Source of the DNA: Hyunsoonleella pacifica
Lineage (GTDB): Bacteria; Bacteroidota; Bacteroidia; Flavobacteriales; Flavobacteriaceae
DNA: 64,000 nucleotides
NCBI RefSeq assembly: GCF_004310335.1
Contig: NZ_SIRS01000005.1
Span: forward strand, 248,001 to 312,000
Reading direction: 5' to 3'
In this document: piece after piece, positions 46,301-58,857 of the stretch
How positions within the stretch are numbered: the stretch's first letter is position 1
How the letters are laid out: every line of letters starts with the position of its first letter
Program-made: the position numbers and the translations under genes
Notes under the pieces: generated by a model
Database searches by the model: none
Seen by the model: only the letters and a program-made list of their open reading frames with translations
Told to the model about the DNA's origin: nothing

Positions 46301-47575
46301 TTAATTAGGAAACTTAGCTCTAATTTTATCTAAAGATAGGTTGTGGATGCTTCCTACATGGGTATGCTGTTTTGAGGTATCTGGAATATAAGTACCATCC
46401 TGTACTTGCCCACCTATTTTTTGGTAGGCCTCTCTAAAGCTCTGACCCTCCACCACTAGCGTATTTATATTATCTACCGTGAATAGGTATTTATATTTAT
46501 CATCATTCAAATCGATGTCTTTTATAATGACTTGCTGAATGGCATAATTAAAAATGTCCAGAATATCTTTTAATTCCTCAAAAGCGGCAATCATATTTTC
46601 TTTTAATAACTGAAAATCTCTGTGATATCCGCTTGGTAAATTATTGGTAATTAATACCATTTCGGTTTGTAATGCTTGTATTTTATTGCACTTACCACGA
46701 ATCAATTCAAACACATCTGGGTTCTTTTTATGTGGCATGATGCTACTACCGGTTGTTAACTCGTCTGGAAAAGTGACAAAGCCAAAATTCTGACTCATAT
46801 ACAAGCACACATCCATTGCAAATCTAGATAGTGTGTTGGCTAAACTTCCTAAAGCTGCGGCAATAGTGCGCTCGTTTTTACCGCGTCCCATTTGGGCAGC
46901 CACCACGTTATATTTTAGCGTAGCAAAATCCATTTCTTTAGTGGTTAATTCTCTATCTATTGGAAATGAACTCCCATAACCAGCAGCCGAACCTAGCGGA
47001 TTTTGGTCCACCGTTTTTAAGGCAGCGTTTAGTAAATACACATCGTCAATCATTAATTCAGCATAAGCCGAAAACCATAATCCAAAGGATGATGGCATGG
47101 CTACTTGTAAATGGGTATATCCTGGTAAGAGTTTGTCTTTATGTGTTTCAGCTAAATCTAAAAGCGTATCAAATAATGTTTTTACTTTAGATTGTACTAC
47201 CTGTAAATTCTCTTTATAGTATAAATGGCATGCCACTAAAACCTGGTCGTTTCTGGAGCGCGCCGTATGTATTTTTTTCCCAACCTCTCCCAAAGATTTG
47301 GTTAATTCGAACTCAATTTTAGAGTGTACATCTTCAAATTGTGCATCAATTTGAAACGTACCTTCCTCAATTTGTTGTGCCAACACCTCTAAACCTCCTA
47401 AAAGTTGTTCTAATTCTTCGGAAGTTAAAATGCTTATACTCTGTAGCATTTTTGCATGCGCTTTGGACGCGATGATATCATATTTTGCTATATGAATATC
47501 AATTTCACGGTCGTTACCAACTGTAAATTGCTCTATTTTGTTGTCTATTGATATGCCTTTATCCCAGAGTTTCAT
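46301..47575 (-). CDS. argH: Argininosuccinate lyase ArgH
   Basis: Final step of arginine synthesis: argininosuccinate to arginine and fumarate. The superfamily signature GSSIMPHKKNPDVFELIRGK is complete, and HTARSRNDQV near 100 and TPGYTHLQ-like LPGYTHLQVAMPSS near 153 are present. The open frame reaches back six codons into the CATTCCCGCG repeat (MTKNLI), but the natural N-terminus MKLWDKGISIDNKIEQFT starts at ATG 47573-47575. Last gene of the arg/pro operon. Confidence 0.96.
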   Translation of the reverse strand: MKLWDKGISIDNKIEQFTVGNDREIDIHIAKYDIIASKAHAKMLQSISILTSEELEQLLGGLEVLAQQIEEGTFQIDAQFEDVHSKIEFELTKSLGEVGKKIHTARSRNDQVLVACHLYYKENLQVVQSKVKTLFDTLLDLAETHKDKLLPGYTHLQVAMPSSFGLWFSAYAELMIDDVYLLNAALKTVDQNPLGSAAGYGSSFPIDRELTTKEMDFATLKYNVVAAQMGRGKNERTIAAALGSLANTLSRFAMDVCLYMSQNFGFVTFPDELTTGSSIMPHKKNPDVFELIRGKCNKIQALQTEMVLITNNLPSGYHRDFQLLKENMIAAFEELKDILDIFNYAIQQVIIKDIDLNDDKYKYLFTVDNINTLVVEGQSFREAYQKIGGQVQDGTYIPDTSKQHTHVGSIHNLSLDKIRAKFPN

Positions 47576-47588
47576 TATTAAGTTTTTT

Positions 47589-47654
47589 GTCATTCCCGCG
47601 AAGGCGGGAATCTATTTTTTAATTTATTGGATTCCTGCCTTCGCAGGAATGACA
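47589..47654. repeat. Pair of REP-like palindromes between argE-like and argH
   Basis: Two palindromic repeats, TGTCATTCCCGCGAAGG CGGGAATC and GGATTCCTGCCTTCGCAGG AATGACA, are arranged head to head with 16 bp between, so each folds alone and the pair can fold together. It is a common dispersed repeat type in Bacteroidota and here fills the argE-argH gap. Confidence 0.75.
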
Positions 47655-47660
47655 GAATTG

Positions 47661-48725
47661 CTAAACGATAACCCGTTCCAACAATTCAACATATATTTTA
47701 ATGCCTTCTTCTATTTCTTTTAAATAAATAAATTCATCTGCACTATGTGAACGCGTACTATCGCCTGGACCTAATTTTAAACTAGGGCAGGATAATACCG
47801 CTTGGTCTGATAATGTTGGCGACCCGTATGTGCTTCGTCCCATAGCAACACCTGCTTTTACGAGTGCATGGTCTGTTGGTATGGAGGATGAATTTAATCT
47901 TAAACTACGTGGTGTAATGCTGGTTACTGGTGCTTCTTTTTGTAAAATTTCGGCAATTTCAGCATTGCTGTAAGCATCATTAACGCGCACATCTATCACT
48001 AAACTTAAATCGGCTGGTACGGCATTGTGTTGCTTCCCTGCACTTATCTGACTTACGGTTAACTTTACATCGCCTAAAGCTTCAGAGCCTTTTTCAAATC
48101 TGTAATCTTTAAACCATTGCAAGGTGTCAATTGCTTTGTAAATCACATTATCATCATTTGGATGTGCTGCATGACTTGGTGTTCCTGTTAAAACAGCATC
48201 GAACACTACGAGACCTTTTTCAGCGACAGCTAAATTCATCAACGTAGGTTCTCCCACAATAGCTACATCTACTTTTGGAATGATTGGCAGCATACTGTTT
48301 AATCCGTTAGCTCCACTACTTTCTTCTTCCGCGGAAGCGACAATCACTAAGTTATAGTTTAAGTTTTCATGGTTGTAGTAATAGGTAAATGTTGCTATTA
48401 AACTTACCAAACAACCCCCAGCATCGTTACTGCCTAAACCATATAGCTTCCCATCTTCTACAATAGCCTTAAATGGGTCTTTTGTGTAAGCAGAATTAGG
48501 TTTTACCGTATCGTGATGTGAATTTAAAAGTAAAGTTGGCTTTCCTGCTTTAAAATGTTTATTTACTGCCCAAACGTTATTTTTTGTGCGCTTGAAATCT
48601 ATACCATAACGCTGAAACCATCCTTCAATATGAGATGCCGTTTGGTCTTCTTCTGATGAAAACGATTGGGTTTCTATCAGTTGTTTTAACAGCGATATGG
48701 CATCTTGCGTTAATTCCTGAATCAT
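47661..48725 (-). CDS. argE: M20-family N-acyl-ornithine/citrulline deacylase (ArgE-like)
   Basis: A 354-aa metallopeptidase-fold deacylase. Zinc-site motifs: LNSHHDTVKP near 82, GLGSNDAGG near 113, EEESSGANG near 134 with the catalytic Glu, and the C-terminal histidine in TRSHSADEF. In an operon with an acylornithine-type transcarbamylase its substrate should be N-acyl-citrulline instead of acetylornithine. If the succinyl prediction for ArgF' holds, it removes succinate. It begins 3 nt after the argB stop. Confidence 0.9.
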   Translation of the reverse strand: MIQELTQDAISLLKQLIETQSFSSEEDQTASHIEGWFQRYGIDFKRTKNNVWAVNKHFKAGKPTLLLNSHHDTVKPNSAYTKDPFKAIVEDGKLYGLGSNDAGGCLVSLIATFTYYYNHENLNYNLVIVASAEEESSGANGLNSMLPIIPKVDVAIVGEPTLMNLAVAEKGLVVFDAVLTGTPSHAAHPNDDNVIYKAIDTLQWFKDYRFEKGSEALGDVKLTVSQISAGKQHNAVPADLSLVIDVRVNDAYSNAEIAEILQKEAPVTSITPRSLRLNSSSIPTDHALVKAGVAMGRSTYGSPTLSDQAVLSCPSLKLGPGDSTRSHSADEFIYLKEIEEGIKIYVELLERVIV

Positions 48726-48727
48726 AA

Positions 48728-49504
48728 TTACAAGGTTATGGTTGTGAAATTATCATTTTCTTGTGTTAACATGGCTGTATTCCCCATGTTAATAGAATGT
48801 ACACCATTGTTTAAAGCATCAAAACAATTTTCTAGCTTTGGTAACATACCGTCTGCAATAATACCTTTTTCTAACAATTCGGCATACAATTTAGTATCAA
48901 TATGTTTTATTACAGAGTTTTTATCGTTAATATCTTCTAATACCCCATTTAACTCAAAACAATAATAAATAGAAACATCATATAAATGACTCATTCCTAC
49001 AGCTACCTGACTTGTAATAGTATCAGCATTAGTGTTCAATAATTGTCCATTTCCATCGTGAGTAATGGCACAAAACACTGGTGTAAAATCAGCTTTAATC
49101 AATTTATCTATGGATTTACCTGATACTGTTTTTACATCGCCTACAAAACCGAAATCTACATCCTTCACTGGTCTTTTATCAGAAGTAATACTGTTTATAT
49201 CTGCACCTGTTAGACCAATAGCATCGATATTTAGCCCTTGTAATTTAGCTACTATGTTTTTATTAACTAATCCGCCATACACCATAGTAATGACTTCTAA
49301 GGTGTCGGCATCAGTAATACGTCTACCATTAACCATTTTAGACTCAATACCCAGTTTTGCAGCTATACTAGTAGCGCGTTTTCCACCACCATGTACCAGT
49401 ATCTTTTTGCCTTCTAACTTTGAAAATAATTGTAGAAAGTTATCTAAAGCATTGGCATCTTCAATGATGTTTCCTCCTATTTTTACGATGGATAGTTTTT
49501 CCAT
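48728..49504 (-). CDS. argB: N-acylglutamate kinase ArgB
   Basis: Phosphorylates N-acetyl- (or N-succinyl-) glutamate, the second step of arginine synthesis. 258 aa, the usual length. Amino-acid-kinase motifs: VKIGGNIIED at the N-terminus, LVHGGGKRATSIAAKLG near 36, NGRRITDADTLEVITMVYGG near 59, and LNTNADTITSQVAVG near 156. A CCTCC-type repeat lies directly upstream, putting GGAGAGGCC next to the ATG on the mRNA. Confidence 0.95.
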   Translation of the reverse strand: MEKLSIVKIGGNIIEDANALDNFLQLFSKLEGKKILVHGGGKRATSIAAKLGIESKMVNGRRITDADTLEVITMVYGGLVNKNIVAKLQGLNIDAIGLTGADINSITSDKRPVKDVDFGFVGDVKTVSGKSIDKLIKADFTPVFCAITHDGNGQLLNTNADTITSQVAVGMSHLYDVSIYYCFELNGVLEDINDKNSVIKHIDTKLYAELLEKGIIADGMLPKLENCFDALNNGVHSINMGNTAMLTQENDNFTTITL

Positions 49505-49546
49505 TGGCCTCTCCCTCCGCCCTCTCCAAAGGAGAGGGAACTTTTT
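49505..49546. repeat. CCTCC-family repeat end upstream of argB
   Basis: GCCTCTCCCTCCGCCCTCTCC, then AAAGGAGAGGG, then AACTTTTT: a divergent member of the CCTCC palindrome family, filling most of the 49-bp gap between argF' and argB. It abuts the argB start codon with one base between. Confidence 0.7.
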
Positions 49547-49553
49547 AAGTTCG

Positions 49554-50495
49554 TTATATGTTCTCTAACAATTTCTTTAACACCAATTGTGCGGCGTAAG
49601 TTCTATTATTAGCTTGTTCAATAACTATAGAACTGTCGCTATCTAATACGGCATCTTCTACCACTACATTACGTCTTACTGGTAAACAGTGCATAAATTT
49701 TGCATTGCCTAGTTTTTCTTTGGTTATCATCCAATTAGGGTCTGTATTTACTACTTTTCCATAATCTTCGTAAGAACTCCAGTTTTTGGTGTATACAAAA
49801 TCTGCATCCTTAAAAGCTTCCTCTTGGTTATGATAAATTGGCGTATCTCCAGTTATTTCTGGGTTTAAATCATATCCTTCAGGATTTGCAATAACGAATT
49901 CTACATCCATTTTTTGCATGGCTTGGGTAAAGCTGTTGGCTACAGCGTGTGGCAACGGTTTTATGTGTGGTGCCCAACTTAACACTACCTTTGGCTTTGC
50001 TTTTGTTGCATGTTCTGAAATGGTCAATGCATCTGTTAAGCCTTGTAATGGATGTCCTGTGGCACTTTCCATATTTACAATGGGTACAGACGCATATTCC
50101 ATAAAGGCGTTCATGACTTGTTCGCTTTCATCTTTGGCTTTATCAGTTAGCGTTGGAAATGCACGTACCGCTATGATATCACAGTATTGTGATACGACGG
50201 CAGCAGCTTCTTTAATATGCTCGGCGGTATTGCCGTTCATAACTGTACCGTCTTCAAACTCTAAGCCCCAAGCATCGCCAGACACATTCATTACAATAGG
50301 GTTCATCCCTAAATTTAAGGCCGCCTTTTGCGTACTTAAACGTGTTCTTAAACTGGAATTAAAAAATAACAATCCTAGGGTTTTGTTTTTCCCTAAGTCA
50401 ATATGTTTTAAAGGATTTGTTTTTAAAGCCTTTGCGTCTTCAATCCAATCTTCAATATTATCAATATTATTTATGGAGGTGTAATGTTTCATCAT
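49554..50495 (-). CDS. N-acylornithine carbamoyltransferase, succinyl-type signature (ArgF')
   Basis: A 313-aa transcarbamylase of the acylornithine branch. Carbamoyl-phosphate motif FFNSSLRTRLSTQKAALNLG (45-63), HPLQGLTD near 155 and MHCLPVRRNVVV near 265. In this family one residue sets the acyl group: Glu92 in the Xanthomonas acetylornithine enzyme, Pro90 in the Bacteroides succinylornithine enzyme; published swaps to Ala, Ser, Val or Pro gave succinyl specificity. By alignment of VMNGNTAEHIKEA here with VIMDGDKPEHLLEA, the residue is Ala91 (codon at 50223-50225), predicting N-succinylornithine. Two consecutive ATGs are possible starts; the upstream GNAT stop overlaps them. Confidence 0.92.
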   Translation of the reverse strand: MMKHYTSINNIDNIEDWIEDAKALKTNPLKHIDLGKNKTLGLLFFNSSLRTRLSTQKAALNLGMNPIVMNVSGDAWGLEFEDGTVMNGNTAEHIKEAAAVVSQYCDIIAVRAFPTLTDKAKDESEQVMNAFMEYASVPIVNMESATGHPLQGLTDALTISEHATKAKPKVVLSWAPHIKPLPHAVANSFTQAMQKMDVEFVIANPEGYDLNPEITGDTPIYHNQEEAFKDADFVYTKNWSSYEDYGKVVNTDPNWMITKEKLGNAKFMHCLPVRRNVVVEDAVLDSDSSIVIEQANNRTYAAQLVLKKLLENI

Positions 50496-50932
50496 GCTTT
50501 CAATTCCATTTTTTGGTGAATAATTCCGGTTTTAAGTGATGGATATAGCTCTCCAACAGGTTTAAAATTAAACTTACTATAAAAACCTAAAGCTGTTTCT
50601 CTAGCACTTAAAACGATTTTAGTCACGCCTTTTTCTTCACTATATTCTATTAATGCTTTTAATATTTTGGCACCAATACCTTGCTTTTGAAAATTTGTAT
50701 TAACAGCCATTTGAGATATAATCCCTGTATTATCTTCAATATTTAAACGCCCTGTTCCAACAACTTCATTTTCATTCAAACACACTAAATGTAAGCCATC
50801 AGATTCTAAAGCATCGTTAATTAAATCTGAACTATTTTTCATGTTCTTGAAGAACTGTTCTTTTCTAATTGCTACTGCTTTTTGATACAAAGGGTCTTCA
50901 ATTGTTATATATTTCAATTTCAAACTAAACAC
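50492..50932 (-). CDS. Small GNAT N-acetyltransferase within the arg operon
   Basis: A 146-aa GNAT with the acetyl-CoA loop QMAVNTNFQKQGIGAKILKAL (about 74-94) and the C-terminal beta-bulge region ARETALGFYSKFNFKPVGE, close to the ElaA/YitI type. The first usable codon is GTG at 50930-50932, immediately after an in-frame TAA; there is no ATG until residue 31. It overlaps argF' by 4 nt. A role in acyl-glutamate formation is possible, but the other GNAT at 57895 is the better candidate for that step; this one may be a housekeeping acetyltransferase. Confidence 0.8.
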   Translation of the reverse strand: MFSLKLKYITIEDPLYQKAVAIRKEQFFKNMKNSSDLINDALESDGLHLVCLNENEVVGTGRLNIEDNTGIISQMAVNTNFQKQGIGAKILKALIEYSEEKGVTKIVLSARETALGFYSKFNFKPVGELYPSLKTGIIHQKMELKA

Positions 50933-50952
50933 TTACTCTTTTAGTTTATGAT

Positions 50953-50980
50953 GAGATGCTGAAATAAATTCAGCATGACA
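50953..50980. repeat. GATGCTGAA palindromic repeat, proB-GNAT gap
   Basis: GAGATGCTGAAATAAATTCAGCATGACA contains ATGCTGAA and TTCAGCAT arms, written here as arms ATGCTGAA and TTCAGCAT around a short A/T spacer. A near-identical copy is at 56676-56703 in the argC-argG gap of the same operon, so this is a third small repeat family. Confidence 0.7.
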
Positions 50981-50987
50981 TTTCATA

Positions 50988-51755
50988 TCATTTTATCTTA
51001 GTAAACGGCACCTCATTTTCCATAGCATTGACTATAAAATTATCTTCGAGTCCGTTTACAATCCATGTTTCAACCTCAGCTTCTTTCGCCACCTTTGCAG
51101 CTTCTATTTTGCTTTGCATGCCACCACTTCCGTGCGAAGATTTAGAATTAACCACCTCATCTGTCAATTCACTAAAATTGGTAACTTCTTTAATAGTTTT
51201 TGGCGTACCACTTTCTATAGATGCTTTGGTATAAATACCATTGGTGTTGGTAGCAATGACAAATAAATCGGCATTTAATAACGAAGCGGTTAAGGCTCCT
51301 AATTTATCGTTGTCTCCAAATTTAATCTCATCAGTAGCTACTGTATCATTTTCGTTAATAATAGGTATGTAATTGTTATTTACTAATACGTTAATGGTAT
51401 TTGTAATATTGACTTTGCTTTCTTCTTTTTCAAAATCTGAATACGATAACAAACATTGCGAAGTAAGCAACCCATATTCTCTAAAAATCTCCTGATAAAT
51501 ACGTATGAGATGTGGCTGACCGATAGATGCTAAGGCTTGTTTTACAAAAACATCTTCTTGCTTACTCTCTAATTTTACAAATTGCTTAGCTACAGCAATA
51601 GCTCCAGAGCTTACAATAATAAATTCGCAAGTATCTTGAAGTTGTGCAATTTGATTTGCAATATCTTCAATCTTACCTCTGGAAATATTATTGGTTTCCT
51701 TGGTTAGGGTATTAGACCCCATCTTTAGCAATATGCGTTTCTTTTTCTTATGCAT
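50988..51755 (-). CDS. proB: Glutamate 5-kinase ProB, lacking the PUA domain
   Basis: First step of proline synthesis. 255 aa: the amino-acid-kinase domain is complete (LLKMGSNTLT, FIIVSSGAIAVA near 44, INENDTVATDEIKFGDND near 132, SHGSGGMQSKIEAA near 206), but the roughly 100-residue C-terminal PUA domain of the 367-aa E. coli form is absent. Such short ProB proteins occur in several phyla. It sits with proA and proC inside the arginine operon; both pathways use glutamate. Confidence 0.94.
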   Translation of the reverse strand: MHKKKKRILLKMGSNTLTKETNNISRGKIEDIANQIAQLQDTCEFIIVSSGAIAVAKQFVKLESKQEDVFVKQALASIGQPHLIRIYQEIFREYGLLTSQCLLSYSDFEKEESKVNITNTINVLVNNNYIPIINENDTVATDEIKFGDNDKLGALTASLLNADLFVIATNTNGIYTKASIESGTPKTIKEVTNFSELTDEVVNSKSSHGSGGMQSKIEAAKVAKEAEVETWIVNGLEDNFIVNAMENEVPFTKIK

Positions 51756-51802
51756 GTCTTGTTTGTAAAATCTTTACAGTAATTAGACCTCAACTTTTAT
51801 CT

Positions 51803-52195
51803 TCAATTACTTTCCCCTAATTGAATACTACTTCCTGATATTACCTGCCATTGACGATTAATCAATTTCCAGGTTCTAATAATTTTATATGTTCCGTCAA
51901 TGACAAAATCAAAATACATCCCTTTCATGTTGATTGTTGTTGAAACAATAGCAGTATCTTCTATTAAATTTATATCTTGATTTGTAGCATGGATATCCGT
52001 TATTTTCATATTACCTGAACCATACGTTTCTAAATCCATAACCTTGGTTATCGTTTGTCCGTTAGGAATATTAAAAAGTAACTTATCATGTAATAAATCA
52101 TCTAATTTGTTAATATCAGCTCGTTTCATGGCAAGTAAAAGCTCGCTTTCTACTTCTATTATTGCATCCTTATCTTTTAACTTAATATTGTCCAT
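51803..52195 (-). CDS. NTF2-like (DUF4440/SnoaL-type) small protein
   Basis: A 130-aa cone-fold protein, no signal peptide. N-terminal helix DAIIEVESELLLAMKRADIN followed by DDLLHDKLLFNIPNGQTITK and the strands TWKLINRQWQVISGSSIQL, as in DUF4440 proteins. Catalytic function is unknown. It is inserted between proA and proB on the same strand and is probably co-transcribed, but no biosynthetic role is evident. Confidence 0.75.
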   Translation of the reverse strand: MDNIKLKDKDAIIEVESELLLAMKRADINKLDDLLHDKLLFNIPNGQTITKVMDLETYGSGNMKITDIHATNQDINLIEDTAIVSTTINMKGMYFDFVIDGTYKIIRTWKLINRQWQVISGSSIQLGESN

Positions 52196-52224
52196 TCAGA
52201 TTTCAATTTCAAAATTAGCTACAT

Positions 52225-53421
52225 TTATCTAATTTGTCCGTTACCGTGAACATACCATTTATTGGTTACCAAATGCTGTAAACCAATAGGCCCGCGTTGG
52301 TGCAATTTATCGGTACTGATGGCTAACTCGCCTCCTAAACCAAACTCAAATCCATCTGTGAAACGTGTAGATGCATTATGGTAAACTGCACCACAGTCTA
52401 CTGCCATCATAAAGTTCTCAGCAATAGCATTATCATTTGTTACAATAGTTGCTGAATGTCCGCCACTATATTTATTAATCATTTCTATAGCTGCTTGAGC
52501 ATTTTCTATACTGCCTATTACTATTTTATAATCTAAAAACTCTTCATACCAAATGGCATCGTTATCTATTTGATTTACAGTACTATAATCACTAAGTGAT
52601 GCATCTCCCTGAATTTCGACATTATGAGATTCTAAACGTGCTATTAAATCGCTGATAAACTGTGACTTGTTTGGTAAATCGTTATCTATAATAACTTTAT
52701 CTACAGCATTACAGCCTGATACTTTTTGCGTTTTACCATTAACTATAATATCTAAAGCCATAGTAGCATCAACATTTTTGTGGACATACACAAAATTATT
52801 GCCTCGACCACTCACAATAACTGGACATTTAGCATTTAACTTTACAAACTCTATTAAACGCTCGCCACCACGAGGTACTATTAAATCTAAATTTTGAGTT
52901 GGATTTTCTAAAAAGGCTTGTGTTTCTGTACGATTATAATTTAAATACTCTACCCAATCTGTACTTACTCCATTATCTTTTAAAGCTTTATGCCAAAGGT
53001 TTACAATAGCCAAATTAGAATTTAGAGATTCTTTACCTCCTTTTAATAAAATTTTATTCCCAGATTTAAACGCAATTCCTCCGGCCTCAATAGTTACATC
53101 TGGCCTAGATTCGTAGATAATCATCACGGTACCAAACGATGCTGTTTTATTATAAATCTGCATCCCATTGTCGTGCGTAAAACGGAAACGTTCTACTCCC
53201 ACAGGGTCTTCTAATTCAGATAATTGACGTAAGGACTCAACCATACCATCAATTTTAGCATCGTCGACCTTTAAACGGTCTCGCATTGCTAAATCGCCTC
53301 CAGCATAGGCATCCATATCTATTTTATTAGCATCCAAAATAGTATCCGCATGTTCTTTTACCAATGTTTTCATGGTCTTTAACACGGCATTCCGTTTATC
53401 TATGCTTAGTATCTCATTCAT
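52225..53421 (-). CDS. proA: Glutamate-5-semialdehyde dehydrogenase ProA
   Basis: NADPH-dependent reduction of glutamyl 5-phosphate, the second step of proline synthesis. Aldehyde-dehydrogenase-fold protein, 398 aa. IYESRPDVTIEAGGIAFKSGN near 127 and LIVPRGGERLIEFV near 182 are characteristic, with the catalytic cysteine in the VSGCNAVDKV region near 237 and a C-terminal RFTDGFEFGLGGELAIST segment. Follows argD by 30 nt. Confidence 0.95.
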   Translation of the reverse strand: MNEILSIDKRNAVLKTMKTLVKEHADTILDANKIDMDAYAGGDLAMRDRLKVDDAKIDGMVESLRQLSELEDPVGVERFRFTHDNGMQIYNKTASFGTVMIIYESRPDVTIEAGGIAFKSGNKILLKGGKESLNSNLAIVNLWHKALKDNGVSTDWVEYLNYNRTETQAFLENPTQNLDLIVPRGGERLIEFVKLNAKCPVIVSGRGNNFVYVHKNVDATMALDIIVNGKTQKVSGCNAVDKVIIDNDLPNKSQFISDLIARLESHNVEIQGDASLSDYSTVNQIDNDAIWYEEFLDYKIVIGSIENAQAAIEMINKYSGGHSATIVTNDNAIAENFMMAVDCGAVYHNASTRFTDGFEFGLGGELAISTDKLHQRGPIGLQHLVTNKWYVHGNGQIR

Positions 53422-53451
53422 TTTTATTAGTATTTTACAAGTAACTATAGG

Positions 53452-54597
53452 TTATACAGTTGCTTCAATTTTAACTAAAGCTTTTGTTAAAGCCTCAAAA
53501 AACTGGTCTATATGCTGTTTTTCAATATTTAAAGGGGGTAAAATTCGCAACAGCTTTTTATTCGCTGCTCCTCCTGTAAATATCTTATAGTTATAGATTA
53601 AATCTTTGCGTAGGTCGCCCACTTCAAAATCAAACTCTAAGCCTAGCATTAAACCTCTTCCTTTTATTTGTTTTATCTGTGGAATTGCTTTAGCCTTTTC
53701 AACAAAGTAAGCTCCTATGTTATTAACGTTATCTAATAAGTTCTCAGACTCTATAGTATTTAACACCGATAAACCAGCTGCACACGCTAAATGGTTACCC
53801 CCAAAAGTGGTTCCTAGCATACCATATTTTGCTTCTATATCTGGATGAATAAAAATTCCTCCTATTGGAAATCCGTTACCCATTCCTTTAGCCAGAGAAA
53901 TAATATCTGGGGTAACGTTATAATGCTGAAACGCAAAGAATTTCCCCGAACGTGCATAACCACATTGAATTTCATCTGCAATAAACATAGTATTGTTCGC
54001 TTTACACAAGGCATCTACTTGCTCAAAGAATTCTGTAGTACCTTGGTCTAAACCACCAACACCTTGAATAAACTCCACAATAACAGCGCAAACATCCCCT
54101 TTTTCAAGTTCTCTTTTTACACCTTCAACATCGTTTAACTCTAAAAAAGTTACTTTTTGTTGTGCATTAAGAGGTGCAACCACATTAGGGTTGTCTGTAG
54201 CAGCAACTGCAGCTGATGTACGCCCATGAAATCCATTTTTAAAGGCTATTACACGAGATTTTCCCGTTTTAAACGATGCTAATTTTAATGCATTTTCATT
54301 CGCCTCAGCACCAGAATTCACTAAAAACAACTGGTAGTCTTTACAGCCAGAAAGCTGTTCTAATTTATTGGCTAATTGTTTTTGTAACGGATTTTGAATC
54401 GCATTAGAATAAAATCCTAATGTTTCAACTTGTTTTGTAACTGCCTCTACATAATTTGGATGTGCATGCCCAATGGAAATCACTGCATGCCCACCGTAAA
54501 GGTCTAAATACTCAGTCCCTTGGTCATCATATACATGAATGCCCTTGCCCGAAACTGGTGTTACATTATATAATGGATAAACGTCAAATAATGGCAT
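53452..54597 (-). CDS. argD: N-acylornithine aminotransferase ArgD
   Basis: A 381-aa class-III PLP aminotransferase. NSGAEANENALKLA near 102, IADEIQCGYARSGKFFAF near 206 and SLAKGMGNGFPIGG near 234 with the PLP lysine. It converts the acyl-glutamate semialdehyde to acylornithine. It follows proC by 1 nt and precedes proA, showing how the two pathways are interleaved. Confidence 0.95.
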   Translation of the reverse strand: MPLFDVYPLYNVTPVSGKGIHVYDDQGTEYLDLYGGHAVISIGHAHPNYVEAVTKQVETLGFYSNAIQNPLQKQLANKLEQLSGCKDYQLFLVNSGAEANENALKLASFKTGKSRVIAFKNGFHGRTSAAVAATDNPNVVAPLNAQQKVTFLELNDVEGVKRELEKGDVCAVIVEFIQGVGGLDQGTTEFFEQVDALCKANNTMFIADEIQCGYARSGKFFAFQHYNVTPDIISLAKGMGNGFPIGGIFIHPDIEAKYGMLGTTFGGNHLACAAGLSVLNTIESENLLDNVNNIGAYFVEKAKAIPQIKQIKGRGLMLGLEFDFEVGDLRKDLIYNYKIFTGGAANKKLLRILPPLNIEKQHIDQFFEALTKALVKIEATV

Positions 54598-54598
54598 T

Positions 54599-55393
54599 TT
54601 AACTCTTTTTTAATTGATTAATTTTCTCAAACGAAGCCGTAATTCCTTGAATTAAGGCAGAGCTCAATCCCTTGTGCTCCATTTCATTTAAGCCTGCGAT
54701 AGTACATCCACTTGGTGTGGTAACCCTATCAATTTCTGCTTCTGGGTGCCTACCAGATTCTTTAAGTAAACTAGCAGCACCATAGCAGGTTTGTAATGCT
54801 AAATTATGGGCTTCATCAGCTTCAAAACCTAGCTGAATTGCTCCTTGAGTAGTCGCACGCACAAGGCGCATCCAAAATGCAATACCACTGGCACAAATTA
54901 CCGTAGCAGCCTGTATTTGTTCTTCAGGAATTACCATGGTAGTTCCTAATTGGTTAAATATACTTTTCGCTAATTCAAGCTTCAACTGGCCCACATCATT
55001 AGCCGATAAACAGGTCATCGATTTCCCTATAGAAATCGCCGTATTCGGCATCACACGAATAATATGTTTATCATCGCCTATGATACTTTCAATTTTAGCT
55101 ATGGAAAAACCAGCAGCCACCGACATTATCACATGGTCTTCAGTAATTAAAGGTTCCAATTCCTTTAAAACGCCTTCAATATGTCGCGGCTGAAGCGCAA
55201 AAATCACAACATCACTGTTCTCTACGGCCGTGGCGTTGCTGTTTGTGATTTTCACATAATCTTCATCTACAAACTCATTGACTTGCGCCGTATTTCTATC
55301 ACTTAAATACAACGATGTAAACGACTTGTTTTTAATAAGTCCTTTTGCAATTGAACTTCCTAAATTCCCGGTTCCTATAATGGCTATTTTCAT
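54599..55393 (-). CDS. proC: Pyrroline-5-carboxylate reductase ProC
   Basis: Last step of proline synthesis. 264 aa with Rossmann GTGNLGSSIAKGL at the N-terminus, VIMSVAAGFSIAKIE near 93, RVMPNTAISIGKSMTCL near 115 and the C-terminal signature TTPSGCTIAGLNEMEHKG. A CCTCC repeat end starts about 8 nt upstream of its ATG (55391-55393). Confidence 0.95.
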   Translation of the reverse strand: MKIAIIGTGNLGSSIAKGLIKNKSFTSLYLSDRNTAQVNEFVDEDYVKITNSNATAVENSDVVIFALQPRHIEGVLKELEPLITEDHVIMSVAAGFSIAKIESIIGDDKHIIRVMPNTAISIGKSMTCLSANDVGQLKLELAKSIFNQLGTTMVIPEEQIQAATVICASGIAFWMRLVRATTQGAIQLGFEADEAHNLALQTCYGAASLLKESGRHPEAEIDRVTTPSGCTIAGLNEMEHKGLSSALIQGITASFEKINQLKKS

Positions 55394-55400
55394 AATACTA

Positions 55401-55670
55401 AAAAGAAGCCTCCCCCAACCCCTCCAAAGGAAGGGAGTACTTACTCATATTTTAAAATTATTATATTCATTTTTAAGCCTTTCAGCTTTATTTTTATTCT
55501 TTTTTTGGGCGTTACCCACAAGGGGTCGGGCTTTCCGTTCCAAGTCCTCGCTGCACCCTAAAGGGATTCCGCTGTGGGCTTTCCTCTACAATCCCTAACG
55601 CACTCACTCAAGCGCAACAATACGCATGAGTAAATCCCTCCCCTTCGGGGAGGTTAGGTGGGGCTTCGGG
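55401..55670. repeat. Composite MITE-like element between argC and proC
   Basis: Left end AAGCCTCCCCCAACCCCTCC...TTACTCA (55401-55448), core-family repeat GGGCGTTACCCACAAGGGG ... CAATCCCTAACGC (55501-55601), right end TGAGTAAATCCCTCC...GGTGGGGCTT (55624-55666). The two ends are inverted copies of each other of about 40 bp, and the whole fills the gap from 2 bp after the argC stop to 8 bp before the proC ATG. It has the same plan as 12101-12518. No ORF of its own; it looks like a non-autonomous mobile unit. Confidence 0.75.
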
Positions 55671-55672
55671 CT

Positions 55673-56656
55673 TTAAAAATAAGTTCCTTTCAAACCTAAG
55701 CCCATAGTTTCTTCCAATCCAAACATTAAATTCATATTCTGTATGGCTTGTCCAGAAGCACCTTTCAATAAATTATCAATCGTACTTGTAATTAATAATT
55801 TACCATTATGCTTATGTAAATGCACTAAACACTTGTTGGTGTTTACTACTTGTTTCATATGCAAAAACTCATCCGACACAAATGTAAATTTTGCATCCTT
55901 ATAAAACGAGTTATAAATAGCTTTCGCATCGTCTACAGAACCATCAAAATCCGTATAAATAGTAGCAAAAATACCTCTAGAAAAATTACCTCTATTTGGC
56001 ATAAAAATAATTTCTGAAGAAAAATTGGCTTGCAACTGATTTACCGACTGATTAATCTCTCCTAAATGCTGATGCGTAAACGGTTTGTAATACGAAAAAT
56101 TATTATCTCGCCAGGTGTAATGCGTTGTAGCAGATAACGAGGTTCCCGCACCAGTAGCACCAGTAACAGCATTTACATGCACATCTTTTTTAAGTAAGCC
56201 AGCATCAGCCAAAGGCAATAATCCTAACTGAATAGCCGTAGCAAAACACCCAGGATTAGCAATATAATTCGCATTTACAATAGCCTCTTTATTCAATTCT
56301 GGTAATCCATATACAAACGTTTTACCATCAAAAACTTTATCAGCTTCCAATCTAAAATCGTTACCTAAATCAATAATTTTAGTACTATCAGAAAACGTAT
56401 TAGCTGATAAAAACTTAACCGAATTTCCGTGCCCTAAGCACAGAAATAACACATCTACGTTTGGGTTAACGGTATCAGTAAACACGCGATTTAAAGACCC
56501 AACCAAATCTTGGTGTACTTTAGAAATTTGATTTCCTGCATTACTTGTACTATACACAAAATCTATCTCAACCTCAGGATGATGTATCAATAGTCTGATT
56601 AATTCCCCTGCGGTGTACCCTGCGCCTCCTATGATACCTACTTTTATTTTCTTCAT
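55673..56656 (-). CDS. argC: N-acyl-gamma-glutamyl-phosphate reductase ArgC
   Basis: NADPH-dependent reduction of acyl-glutamyl phosphate. 327 aa with N-terminal Rossmann GIIGGAGYTAGELIRLL, the active-site motif ANPGCFATAIQLGLLPL near 134 with the catalytic Cys, and HQHLGEINQ with the active-site histidine near 196. Downstream of argG across a 53-bp gap that contains a GATGCTGAA repeat. Confidence 0.95.
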   Translation of the reverse strand: MKKIKVGIIGGAGYTAGELIRLLIHHPEVEIDFVYSTSNAGNQISKVHQDLVGSLNRVFTDTVNPNVDVLFLCLGHGNSVKFLSANTFSDSTKIIDLGNDFRLEADKVFDGKTFVYGLPELNKEAIVNANYIANPGCFATAIQLGLLPLADAGLLKKDVHVNAVTGATGAGTSLSATTHYTWRDNNFSYYKPFTHQHLGEINQSVNQLQANFSSEIIFMPNRGNFSRGIFATIYTDFDGSVDDAKAIYNSFYKDAKFTFVSDEFLHMKQVVNTNKCLVHLHKHNGKLLITSTIDNLLKGASGQAIQNMNLMFGLEETMGLGLKGTYF

Positions 56657-56675
56657 TTCAATTTATAATTCTATT

Positions 56676-56703
56676 GAGATGCTGAAACGAGTTCAGCATG
56701 ACA
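56676..56703. repeat. GATGCTGAA palindromic repeat, argC-argG gap
   Basis: GAGATGCTGAA, ACGAG, TTCAGCATGACA: second copy of the small palindrome at 50953-50980, in the same orientation relative to the operon. Confidence 0.7.
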
Positions 56704-56709
56704 AAAAGA

Positions 56710-57885
56710 TTAAGAGTTTACCTGCTGATAAATCTTATTTTGATTTCCTATAATTTTAATAAATCCTTTCGCATCGTCGGCAGTCCATGCTTTATTTTCT
56801 TCGCCATAACTACCAAACTTCGCACTCATTAAATCATGTTCAGATGTGATACCGTCTAATGAGAAATGATACGGTTTTAATGTTACTGTAACGTCTCCCG
56901 AAACTTTTTCTTGACTGTTAGATAAAAACGCTTCAATATCTCGCATTACAGGGTCTAAATACTGTCCTTCATGTAAATGCATACCGTAAAAACTAGACAA
57001 ATACTCTTTATGCTGTAATTGCCACTTCGTAAGCGTATGCTTTTCTAATAAATGGTGTGCTTTCACAGTAATTAAAGCCGCTGCAGCTTCAAATCCTACA
57101 CGCCCTTTTATACCCACAATCGTATCTCCTACGTGAATATCTCTACCAATAGCATAAGCCGATGCTAAATCATTCAATTTTTCAATATTTACCTCTGGTG
57201 CATTAGTTGCGCCATTCAAAGCTACAAACTCGCCTTTATCAAAAGTTAAGGTCACTTTTTCCTCGCCTTCTTTTTCTAATTGCGACGGATACGCTTCACT
57301 TGGTAATGGCTTTTCAGAAGTTAATGTTTCTGCGCCACCTACACTAGTACCCCACAATCCTTTGTTTACGGAGTATTGTGCTTTTTCCCAAGACATATCA
57401 ATACCATTAGCTTTTAAATATTCTATCTCCTCTTGTCTCGATAGTTTTTGGTCTCTAATTGGTGTGATGATTTTTATACCTGGTGCTAGTGTTTGAAAAA
57501 TCATATCAAAACGCACTTGGTCGTTTCCGGCACCTGTACTTCCATGAGCAATATATTCAGCATCAATACTTTTAGCGTACTCAATAATTTCAATAGCTTG
57601 TACAATACGCTCAGCACTTACAGATAGTGGATAGGTGTTATTTTTCAACACATTGCCAAAAATTAAATACTTCACTACCTTTTGGTAAAAGGTTGCTACA
57701 GCATCTATATTTTTATAGGTAGAAACACCCATTTTATAGGCATTACTTTCAATATGTTTAATTTCATCTTGTGTAAAACCTCCTGTGTTTACACTTACCG
57801 CATGCACATCGTATTCTTTGGATAAACTTACTGCACAATACGATGTATCTAATCCGCCACTATAGGCTATTACTAACTTTTTCAT
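56710..57885 (-). CDS. argG: Argininosuccinate synthase ArgG
   Basis: ATP-dependent condensation of citrulline with aspartate. 391 aa. N-type PP-loop AYSGGLDTSYCA at residues 8-19, and the AHGSTGAGNDQVRFD motif near 115. Three residues of the usual cofactor-binding pattern are in place in the SVNKGLWGTSVGG region. It lies 9 nt after the first GNAT gene. Confidence 0.95.
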   Translation of the reverse strand: MKKLVIAYSGGLDTSYCAVSLSKEYDVHAVSVNTGGFTQDEIKHIESNAYKMGVSTYKNIDAVATFYQKVVKYLIFGNVLKNNTYPLSVSAERIVQAIEIIEYAKSIDAEYIAHGSTGAGNDQVRFDMIFQTLAPGIKIITPIRDQKLSRQEEIEYLKANGIDMSWEKAQYSVNKGLWGTSVGGAETLTSEKPLPSEAYPSQLEKEGEEKVTLTFDKGEFVALNGATNAPEVNIEKLNDLASAYAIGRDIHVGDTIVGIKGRVGFEAAAALITVKAHHLLEKHTLTKWQLQHKEYLSSFYGMHLHEGQYLDPVMRDIEAFLSNSQEKVSGDVTVTLKPYHFSLDGITSEHDLMSAKFGSYGEENKAWTADDAKGFIKIIGNQNKIYQQVNS

Positions 57886-57894
57886 GAATTTGTT

Positions 57895-58482
57895 TTAACT
57901 AATATTTTTAAGAATCTTATTAAACTGATTGATTTTAGATTCGAAATATGGATTAACGTAATATTTATATTTAAACTCATCCCTTAACTTTCCCAGCTTT
58001 TCAAGTGTTTCAATTAAAACAGGCGATAAGTCTTTTAATGTAATAAACTTCATGCCTAACAACTCATTGTTAAGATGCACGGTTTTATCTTGAGCTATTG
58101 AAATAAGAAATGCTTTTGAAAATTTTTTGGTCAACGCATCCATCAATAACAACCCTAAATTATGATTTCTATAGGTTTTATGAATCCATAAAGAGGAACG
58201 CTCGTACACAGAGTGTTTTTCTATAGTGTGCCTGTGTGCAAAAATATGACCAACGATATCATCATCTTTTAATAGCAAAAAACAACCATTGTTAAGTCTA
58301 TCAAGCAACATACCTACACTAGCATGATACATCGCAGGAAGATTTTTAGTTCTTTCTGAAATAATCTGTAGCTGTGTTTTGGAAACCTCATGCGTAAAAA
58401 CAAGCTCTAAGCCTTTATCTTCGCAAAAGGCTGTTGCTTCTAATAAAGCTTTATTAATATCTTTTTCCAATGTCGTTTCCAT
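57895..58482 (-). CDS. GNAT acyltransferase, candidate N-acyl(succinyl)glutamate synthase
   Basis: A 195-aa GNAT-fold protein and the first structural gene of the arg/pro operon. N-terminal helices, then the core strands GCFLLLKDDDIVGHIFAHRHT and WIHKTYRNHNLGLLLMDAL (acyl-CoA loop, less canonical than Q/RxxGxG). It occupies the same place (just before argG) as the Bacteroides thetaiotaomicron gene assigned genetically to N-succinylglutamate synthesis, and no classical argA or argJ is in the window. I infer it catalyses the first committed step, with succinyl-CoA if the ArgF' signature is right. Confidence 0.72.
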   Translation of the reverse strand: METTLEKDINKALLEATAFCEDKGLELVFTHEVSKTQLQIISERTKNLPAMYHASVGMLLDRLNNGCFLLLKDDDIVGHIFAHRHTIEKHSVYERSSLWIHKTYRNHNLGLLLMDALTKKFSKAFLISIAQDKTVHLNNELLGMKFITLKDLSPVLIETLEKLGKLRDEFKYKYYVNPYFESKINQFNKILKNIS

Positions 58483-58669
58483 TTTTAGTTGTTGTTTTTT
58501 TCAAAACACATTTCTAGTTTAATATTCAACTTTGACCTAAATAGGTGTGAATTTTAAATTACTTTTCTGCTAAAATCTTCCATAATGGAATAATCCCAAC
58601 AAACTTTAATACTTCAATACATAACGAAAATCGCGAAAGTGAATTACTTTCTTAAACAGATACACCCCA
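58483..58669 (-). other. Arg operon 5' leader, distal part
   Basis: About 190 nt between the leader ORF stop and the first enzyme gene. It contains two small hairpins on the minus strand: GAAAGT-AATTC-ACTTTC (about 58634-58650), followed by a T-rich stretch, and TTCCA-TTA-TGGAA (58578-58590), followed by GATTTTAG. Neither is a strong terminator by itself, but the arrangement is compatible with attenuation. Confidence 0.4.
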
Positions 58670-58762
58670 CTAGGGGCGTGTTTGAGGAAAACGCACAACA
58701 ACTGCCTCAGCATTGGCTGCTGAAACAAAAGAGATAAAAGATATGTTGTTTCCTGTTTTCAC
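58670..58762 (-). CDS. Leader peptide ORF of the arg/pro operon, ending Arg-Pro-stop
   Basis: A 30-codon ORF that would start at GTG (58760-58762) and stop at TAG (58670-58672), 60 nt after the predicted transcription start. It begins (M)KTGNNISFIS and ends AEAVVVRFPQTRP-stop, with Arg codons CGT and CGC near the end. The RNA over it forms TCAGCA-GCCAA-TGCTGA, and a second hairpin, ACGCCCC-TAGT-GGGGTGT, whose loop is the stop codon. Ending in Arg-Pro-stop recalls the E. coli TnaC arrest peptide. Too short for homology; the GTG start and translation are inferred. Confidence 0.45.
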   Translation of the reverse strand: MKTGNNISFISFVSAANAEAVVVRFPQTRP

Positions 58763-58827
58763 TGAATAACCATCTTAACTATTAACTCTAAATCGTCGGC
58801 GTGAGCCCCTTTCGTTAATATGAGCGG

Positions 58828-58857
58828 CAAAATTACAACTTATTATGAATTAAACAA
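58828..58857 (-). promoter_or_regulatory. Promoter of the arg/pro operon
   Basis: On the minus strand TTG (58855-58857) is followed after 19 nt by TAATTTTG (58828-58835), an excellent match to the Bacteroidota TTG-N19-TAnnTTTG promoter. It predicts a 5' leader of about 340 nt before the first enzyme gene, unusually long for this operon-dense genome. Confidence 0.7.

Follow-up and report, generated by a model that had tools for sequence, protein, structure and literature searches.

Classical amino-acid attenuators are known from the his, trp, leu and thr leaders of enteric bacteria, and to our knowledge arginine is not among them. The E. coli TnaC leader peptide ends in Arg-Pro-stop, and the SpeFL leader ORF has about 30 codons. 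According to the available sections of one paper, TnaC stalling requires Trp12, Asp16, Ile19 and Pro24, residues 23 and 24 being Arg and Pro, and SpeFL is named as an ornithine arrest peptide (PMC8429421). A transcriptome study of Flavobacterium psychrophilum reports clues for leader-peptide attenuation 5' of amino-acid biosynthesis operons; in the available part of that source pheA and hisG, and not arg, are named for conserved structured 5' elements (PMC9723704). In Bacteroides thetaiotaomicron, short ORFs in long 5' UTRs are described, in the sections available, as reminiscent of attenuation leader peptides (PMC7366714). An arginine leader is not treated in the available part of PMC4833913, and no description of one in Flavobacteriaceae stood out in the open-licence literature, taken without supplements.

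The window (the whole 64,000-nt stretch of Hyunsoonleella pacifica DNA that was analysed) carries an arginine/proline operon behind a leader whose ORF ends in Arg-Pro-stop. The leader, the ORF, both of its hairpins and the promoter-like boxes all lie on the minus strand, 5' of a GNAT-argG gene pair:

58828..58857, minus strand: promoter-like TTG (58857-58855), 19-nt spacer and TAATTTTG (58835-58828), read from the letters
near 58821, minus strand: putative transcription start, the presumed 5' end of the leader being TATTAACG
58670..58762, minus strand: leader ORF, GTG to TAG, 30 aa, ending RFPQTRP-stop (translation, homologues)
57895..58482, minus strand: GNAT acetyltransferase, operon gene 1 (PF00583, 25.7 bits, cut-off 20.7)
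57885..56710, minus strand: argG (ORF; best NCBIfam matches all below cut-offs)
46301..57885, minus strand: remaining operon, with argG, argC, proC, argD, proA, DUF4440, proB, small GNAT, N-acetylornithine carbamoyltransferase, argB, argE-like and argH (ORFs)

The window's GNAT has no match in NCBIfam, and the GNAT protein of a congener (G002) is 100% identical to it. The argC and N-acetylornithine carbamoyltransferase genes exceed NCBIfam cut-offs, and the others (proC, argD, proA, proB, argB, argE-like and argH) are presumably what their names say, judging by their sequences. We infer that the arg/pro genes down to 46301 share one transcript. The DUF4440 protein and the small GNAT (51803-52195 and 50492-50932, minus strand; Pfam) are embedded among the proline and arginine genes. 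Elsewhere in the window there is a SAM riboswitch (RF00162, 13913-14037, minus strand, 74.3 bits).

The initial annotation, made from the letters, described a near-perfect promoter and a leader of roughly 340 nt. TTG-N19-TAATTTTG is indeed seen, and is promoter-like by what we take to be the Bacteroidota -33/-7 consensus; in a six-row alignment (A1), the TAnnTTTG box is present in 6/6 rows and the upstream TTG in 4/6 (absent from L006 and L007). A sigma-70-type promoter scan was uninformative on this point (3 sites vs 2.0 ± 1.5 in shuffles). The leader length holds, from about 58821 to 58483. The folding energy of the first 196 nt is -58.6 kcal/mol vs -42.7 ± 4.0 in shuffles, with 0/200 shuffles as low.

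Similar leaders precede argG across the family, and the leader is probably an arginine-responsive leader-peptide attenuator of the arg/pro operon, in the window and family-wide. argG was found at E 1e-120 in 116/159 family genomes, and 112 argG upstream regions from 111 genomes were surveyed (28 initial loci, 80 more and five congeners, G009 among them). L146, which could not be oriented, and G063, G171, G303, G129, G677, G059 and G090 were omitted; the window is not among the 112 regions, which include five other window-type leaders. An ORF of 15-80 codons ending in RP-stop lies within 450 nt 5' of the first gene in 88/112 regions (0.75 expected), and the ending is RRP-stop in 81/112 (0.05 expected), the expectations coming from 20 dinucleotide shuffles per region. 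Examples of such peptides are MKEQRHIPVSRNASIPSPVRPFFTRRRRP and MNGHTYIFSVLGTPAPVRPFVVRRRP; from the N-terminus to the RRP core the peptides vary widely. The common form of these leaders is here called type B. Among the other 24 regions, the frame continues beyond RP in 14 (mostly as RRPLG-type) and RRL or RRT takes its place in 3, and no such ORF was found in 7/112 (L077, L085, L143, L152, L159, L160 and L161). The survey may have missed the leaders of L077 and L085, since the usual GNAT gene sits upstream of the anchor gene there, and that of L159, where the anchor gene is truncated and a stretch resembling hairpins I and II is present. Operon gene 1 is of the window's GNAT type in 9/112 regions, of another type (MKVVIADxSHIKYAE...) in 101/112 and unassigned in two; in L077 and L085 the second GNAT type lies just upstream of the first.

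The Arg codons are the recurring feature of these ORFs. The 11-residue core has at least three Arg in 95/105 (in L088, L097 and L110 a neighbouring ORF was scored, the actual ends being VRPFG, RRPFG and RRT). CGC accounts for 210/429 of leader Arg codons vs 12/227 in argG genes, an excess that would suit codons which also serve as a hairpin arm: the ORFs before argG usually end in Arg codons plus Pro, these codons form the 5' arm of a hairpin (hairpin I), and the stop is usually in its loop. Hairpin I is present in 78/105 by one criterion, vs 20.8 in mononucleotide shuffles. In alignment A6 (87/112 regions, selected by a CGYCY...GGG stretch and then the loop motif) it has at least 4 pairs in 87/87, which proves nothing, since A6 was selected for it; CGCCC-GUAA-GGGUG or GCCC-GUAA-GGGU is the commonest form (57/87). 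About 17 nt past hairpin I is hairpin II, with loop AGGUGWGUCC and arms that are independent of the A6 selection. These arms covary, with a mean stem of 6.31; exchanging the flanks among genomes gives 4.75 ± 0.12, and no more than 5.08 in any of 500 permutations. A pattern for the hairpin II loop and 3' arm had 15 matches in 13/19 genomes, 13 at the arg leader, as judged by position relative to argG, and 2 inside genes, which makes it specific to arg; 6/19 genomes, G000 among them, had no match to the pattern. Type B ORFs have a weak conservative bias in frame 0 (z 2.3 and 2.1), the set having been pre-filtered to keep that frame open; values in the two remaining forward frames are negative. 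The Arg codons plus the hairpin look like the conserved unit.

Two narrower searches had little reach. The exact pattern RRFPRRP-stop matched in 5/299 family genomes and was too narrow, the argG survey being used instead, and a type B covariance model (R2, 4 base pairs, stricter filters) found 2/247 class genomes, both of this family. In many type B loci another conserved, Arg-rich ORF, e.g. MKNLKNKIRCTTPGLPVRNRRRF-stop, precedes the RRP ORF by about 120 nt and the GNAT start by about 300 nt (L042-L045, L048, L057, L060, L065 and others), and tandem leader peptides are possible in these loci.

The window-type leader (type A) was found with covariance model R1, built on six leaders (alignment A4), in 14/397 family genomes from 9 genera (168-232 bits; family search with stricter filters). 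Against 296 order genomes, R1 was strong only in two of the 14 already known, with 3 more at E 0.09 to 0.85. The leader is carried by 7/12 congeners, and the identical seven carry the window's GNAT gene; in the other 5/12, argG stands behind a different GNAT and a different leader. Alignment A5 has 21 leaders (20 distinct sequences), and all 21 stand before GNAT-argG (the window, 19 loci and L005).

The ORF itself is as first annotated, a 30-aa frame from GTG to TAG ending in Arg-Pro-stop, with two Arg codons near its end (CGT, codon 24; CGC, codon 29); its peptide is VKTGNNISFISFVSAANAEAVVVRFPQTRP. GTG is invariant and the frame is open in 21/21 aligned leaders. The sole indels inside the frame, in L004 and L007, are +3 and add one Arg codon; indels of other sizes are found before and after the ORF. 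The end is RP-stop in 17/21, with read-through in L004, L007, L023 and L029, and there are one to four Arg codons per ORF (two in the window, one in L032). There is no synonymous excess in frame 0 (16% of differing codon pairs vs 21.5% in column shuffles, z_syn -0.93), and codons 1-11 have zero synonymous changes, varying only non-synonymously; the few synonymous changes suggest that much of the conservation in this ORF acts at the nucleotide level. Judged on these sequences, homology is a stronger argument for the frame than codon statistics. The alignment of relatives proposed in the initial annotation bears out a conserved frame and a covarying hairpin within it (6/10 pairs), with no synonymous bias in the window-type ORF; the C-terminal residues recur in most leaders of both types, with read-through or RRL/RRT in some others. 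A second Arg-rich leader ORF in the 5' element (frame NERG-RRRFRVNS) was considered and rejected as a general feature: TAA interrupts the frame in L007 and L064, and the window lacks a usual start codon for it.

Conservation is strongest at the 5' end. Mean identity to the window is 98% over leader positions 1-41, 96% over codons 1-11 and 75% over codons 12-30 (20 comparisons, two from one genome), vs 60% at argG third codon positions (first 720 nt), and the 5' half is thus held at the nucleotide level far above background. Among the 20 distinct sequences, 38/41 first leader columns are invariant. The conservation of the leader, the compensatory changes in the ORF hairpin and the Arg-Pro-stop ORFs before argG exceed chance. 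One element lies at the presumed 5' end of the transcript:

58783..58816, minus strand: ultraconserved 34-nt element AACGAAAGGGGCTnnnGCCGACGATTTAGAGTTA

With 31 fixed positions, this element was found in 19/359 family genomes from 12 genera, at one site each; 18 genomes have 0 mismatches and one has 1, though 3 were permitted. Fourteen of the 19 genomes are the 14 found with the covariance model. In the remaining five (type C), the element lies directly before an ATG-started ORF, all five 5' of argG, the peptides being MKTSNYIITEINAHFLSMLFNTFIPARRFRRPLRV, MKTTNYIYTQVNAQFMSILFNAFIPARRFRRPLRV, MKTLHFFTSDFNQSIFLEDLLICVRRFRRPIGL, MKTAKNTHTEIIVRYQNISVNPSILLSRFRRPLGV and MKTVNFIITEVKVQFLNILVNITNPARRFRRPLGV. 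The type C M-K-T start aligns with V-K-T of the window, and RFRRP with RFPQTRP, so that ATG replaces GTG at the homologous start in five divergent homologues.

The window-type leader appears highly structured. The elements read from the letters or obtained with RNAalifold on A5 (21 sequences) are:

58810..58817, minus strand: 5' strand of helix P1, UAACGAAA, partner UUUCGUUA at 58629-58622 (8 pairs)
58805..58810, minus strand: AGGGGC, predicted alternative partner of GCCCCU at 58677-58672 (RNAalifold)
58750..58766, minus strand: predicted GNRA-type hairpin UUC-A-GU-GAAA-AC-A-GGAA containing the GTG (RNAalifold, helix 6)
58702..58728, minus strand: hairpin inside the ORF, TTGTTTCAGCA-GCCAA-TGCTGAGGCAG (helix 7)
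58694..58702, minus strand: codons for Val-Val-Val, GTTGTTGTG; predicted partner GCCGACGA in the 5' element (helix 3)
58662..58679, minus strand: hairpin I, ACGCCCC-TAGT-GGGGTGT, stop codon in loop (letters; helix 8)
58635..58651, minus strand: hairpin GAAAGT-AATTC-ACTTTC followed by a U-rich stretch, a candidate attenuator (helix 9)

RNAalifold predicts a UAACGAA/UUCGUUA closing helix, AGGGGC/GYCCCU, GCCGACG with UGUUGUG, and local hairpins. The 8 pairs of P1 are unvarying in the 20 distinct sequences, so covariation speaks neither for nor against this helix. AGGGGC/GCCCCU can pair in 21/21, with one position G-U in two sequences and otherwise no variation; GCCCCU consists of the last Arg-Pro codons and the first base of the stop, and the Arg-Pro-stop sequence being the partner of AGGGGC gives another reason for a fixed CGCCCC. 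Two features initially left unexplained, the VVV run and the non-ATG start, have predicted roles in this structure. For the VVV run (GUUGUUGUG) the predicted partner, wobble pairs included, is the invariant GCCGACGA near the 5' end (90.5% of cells paired, zero double changes), and as one strand of the GCCGACG pairing the Val codons would have a reason to be kept. The invariant GTG is predicted to lie inside the GNRA-type hairpin (99.0% of cells paired, zero double changes), in which GGAA substitutes GAAA in L018/L021 (one genome); the five distant homologues have ATG.

Both hairpins of the initial annotation are present. The ORF-internal one, also written TTTCAGCA-GCCAA-TGCTGAGG, has both-sided changes in 6/10 pairs. 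Hairpin I, with 85.0% of cells paired and no double changes, has a counterpart in type B; its loop holds the stop in the window, and 17/21 leaders end in RP-stop, but the in-loop stop is not strictly conserved, as four leaders read on. The GAAAGT/ACTTTC hairpin (100% of cells paired, double changes in 2/6 pairs) was not called by the terminator scan of the window, in which the terminator-like calls in the leader were hairpin I and the ORF hairpin (2 vs 0.3 ± 0.5 in shuffles). Over the whole model structure, paired cells amount to 93.7% and both-sided changes occur in 8 pairs (6 in the ORF hairpin, 2 in GAAAGU/ACUUUC), most helices having no double changes. Four of five measures lie above nearly all of 500 shuffles, and the measure of further pair types does not (133/500 reach it); A5 was fitted to the structure under test, a bias in its favour, and relatedness is not modelled in the shuffles. 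As the initial annotation had it, the leader matches no described system that could be recognised: Rfam 15 has no match at gathering score, E up to 5 yields only a microRNA match (E 4.1, far below gathering score), no known family appears in 8 related loci searched up to E 0.5, and nothing comparable stood out in the open-licence literature.

An alternative reading for the window's lineage is that the leader is mainly a structured RNA sensor (aptamer-like for arginine/ornithine, or protein-binding) and the ORF a remnant or auxiliary. The essentially invariant element in 19 genomes of 12 genera, the 38/41 invariant columns, the predicted closing helix P1 with its nested helices, the purely non-synonymous variation of codons 1-11 and the reduction to one to four Arg codons are all consistent with this. 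However, the 34-nt element also occurs in the five type C leaders with an ATG ORF, an RFRRP core and hairpin II-like arms, and by eye no UUUCGUUA strand is found downstream of the ORF in those five. The frame is also open in 21/21 with only +3 indels, P1, a predicted pairing, is unvarying, and there is no Rfam match. A mainly RNA-based sensor is therefore an unlikely explanation for the window's lineage, which keeps some weight because Arg codons are few and the competing hairpin of a classical attenuator is weak. A hybrid is similarly improbable yet conceivable: the window-type leader may be an RNA of about 200 nt with the invariant 5' element as an arginine-, ornithine- or protein-binding core that is reset by translation of an ORF from which most Arg codons have been lost. 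A codon-counting attenuator would then be on its way to becoming a metabolite-sensing RNA, and the leaders that combine the 5' element with an RFRRP peptide would be surviving intermediates.

Termination arrest as in TnaC or SpeFL, with the ...RFPQTRP chain sensing arginine or ornithine in the exit tunnel and the stop in the A site, is less likely again. Arg-Pro-stop in 88/112 argG leaders and 17/21 window-type leaders, and a length near 30 aa, would suit an arrest peptide. On the other hand, the window ORF has no Trp and no Asp, leaving TnaC Trp12 and Asp16 without counterpart and only the final Pro in common with the required residues, and its Arg-Pro codons double as an arm of hairpin I. 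Ahead of the RRP core the peptides are highly variable from the N-terminus on, and L004, L007, L023 and L029 read past the stop. L110 and L111 have RRT, with Thr for Pro, and have lost the in-loop stop, while complementary arms of another sequence persist (GCGCAC/GUGCGC in L110, by eye; CGCAC/GUGCG in L111); L107, with RRL, has only a 3-pair stem (by eye). These few cases suggest that the hairpin is what is kept, and not Arg-Pro-stop. The initial annotation had proposed attenuation or a ligand-sensing arrest peptide and drawn the parallel with TnaC; a conserved arg/pro leader, a translated-looking ORF and recurring Arg codons in the stop hairpin agree with the proposal, but the TnaC parallel fails on the absent Trp and Asp and on L110 and L111. 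That the frame arose by chance in an unremarkable 5' untranslated region, as the window-type ORF with its weak coding signal might by itself suggest, is very improbable given the leader in 14/397 genomes, RP-stop in 88/112 regions, 98% vs 60% identity, the 34-nt element and the ATG-started ORFs of type C.

For the arginine-responsive attenuator, Arg codons in a hairpin arm before an arginine operon suggest that the ribosome translating them senses Arg-tRNA. When Arg-tRNA is short, the ribosome would pause at the Arg codons and the 5' arm of the hairpin would stay open; in the window's lineage, the paused ribosome would also keep open the pairing of that arm with the 5' element. When arginine is plentiful, the ribosome would reach the stop and leave, the hairpins would close and operon expression would fall. 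In the window's lineage GGGGC...GCCGACGA could pair with the region of the Val-Val-Val-Arg and Arg-Pro codons, and translation of the ORF would thus reset a larger RNA switch. Control may act on transcription, by termination, or on translation, by exposing or hiding the start codon of the GNAT gene.

Several observations count against the attenuator. Two Arg codons in the window, and one in L032, are few for codon counting, and the window-type ORF has no synonymous enrichment. The competing hairpin needed by the classical type (linker vs hairpin II 5' arm) is weak, with a mean of -0.99 vs -0.57 shuffled and only 46% below their own shuffled mean; against permuted partners the cognate value is -0.99 vs -0.82 ± 0.08, with at least 1 of 60 permutations lower. 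A U-run after hairpin II is missing in most of the type B rows listed, L067 and L104 having 6-7 T. Lastly, in genus g143 7/7 extra loci with argG show neither leader nor loop motif; in L143, L200 and L202-L207 the GNAT-argG pair is present, and the stretch inspected contains neither an RRP ORF nor the hairpin II motif.

Nine further loci of the same family and 20 argG loci from outside it were also inspected. Among the former, L201 has the leader and the loop motif, and one could not be oriented. Among the latter, for which the genomes of about 600 kb of family f16 and some others were omitted by choice, 3/20 could not be oriented, leaving 17. In family f3 (L184) the leader ORF ends in ...APRFFRRPLWVLN-stop. 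Arg-containing ORFs of another form are found in families f15 (3 loci), f7 (1) and f9 (2/3), and among nine loci of family f5 two have Arg-containing ORFs without RRP and seven have nothing.

The C-terminal domain of ArgR (PF02863) was found in 0/31 family genomes, including G000, with 8/14 controls positive, including a Bacteroides. The leader-peptide system looks like an undescribed form of arginine sensing in bacteria seemingly without the usual arginine repressor, and the argG leaders suggest an answer to how Flavobacteriaceae control arginine synthesis genes. The leaders form a series, from the Arg-codon leader (type B) through the leader with the 34-nt element in five genomes (type C) to the structured leader with few Arg codons (type A). 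We infer this direction, and the series would allow direct study of an attenuator evolving into a more RNA-based switch.

Compared with described systems, the locus shares with classical attenuators a short ORF with codons for the pathway's amino acid, before a biosynthetic operon and beside hairpins. Arg-codon enrichment is seen family-wide (at least three Arg in the core of 95/105), the window ORF having only 2. Unlike in the classical leaders, the stop is often in a GUAA loop, type B has hairpin II with its conserved AGGUGWGUCC loop and mostly no U-run, and the window type adds an invariant 34-nt 5' element to few control codons. TnaC has the same Arg-Pro-stop C-terminus, but its operon is catabolic and this one biosynthetic, and here the Arg-Pro codons additionally build one arm of a hairpin. 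With SpeFL the leader shares an ORF of about 30 codons and possibly an arginine-related metabolite; the operon type differs, and no similarity to the SpeFL sequence is apparent by eye. The short ORFs of B. thetaiotaomicron are from the same phylum, the named example being a hypothetical protein, and arginine goes unmentioned in the available main text (PMC7366714). The F. psychrophilum elements are from the same bacterial family, and lie at pheA and hisG rather than at arg.
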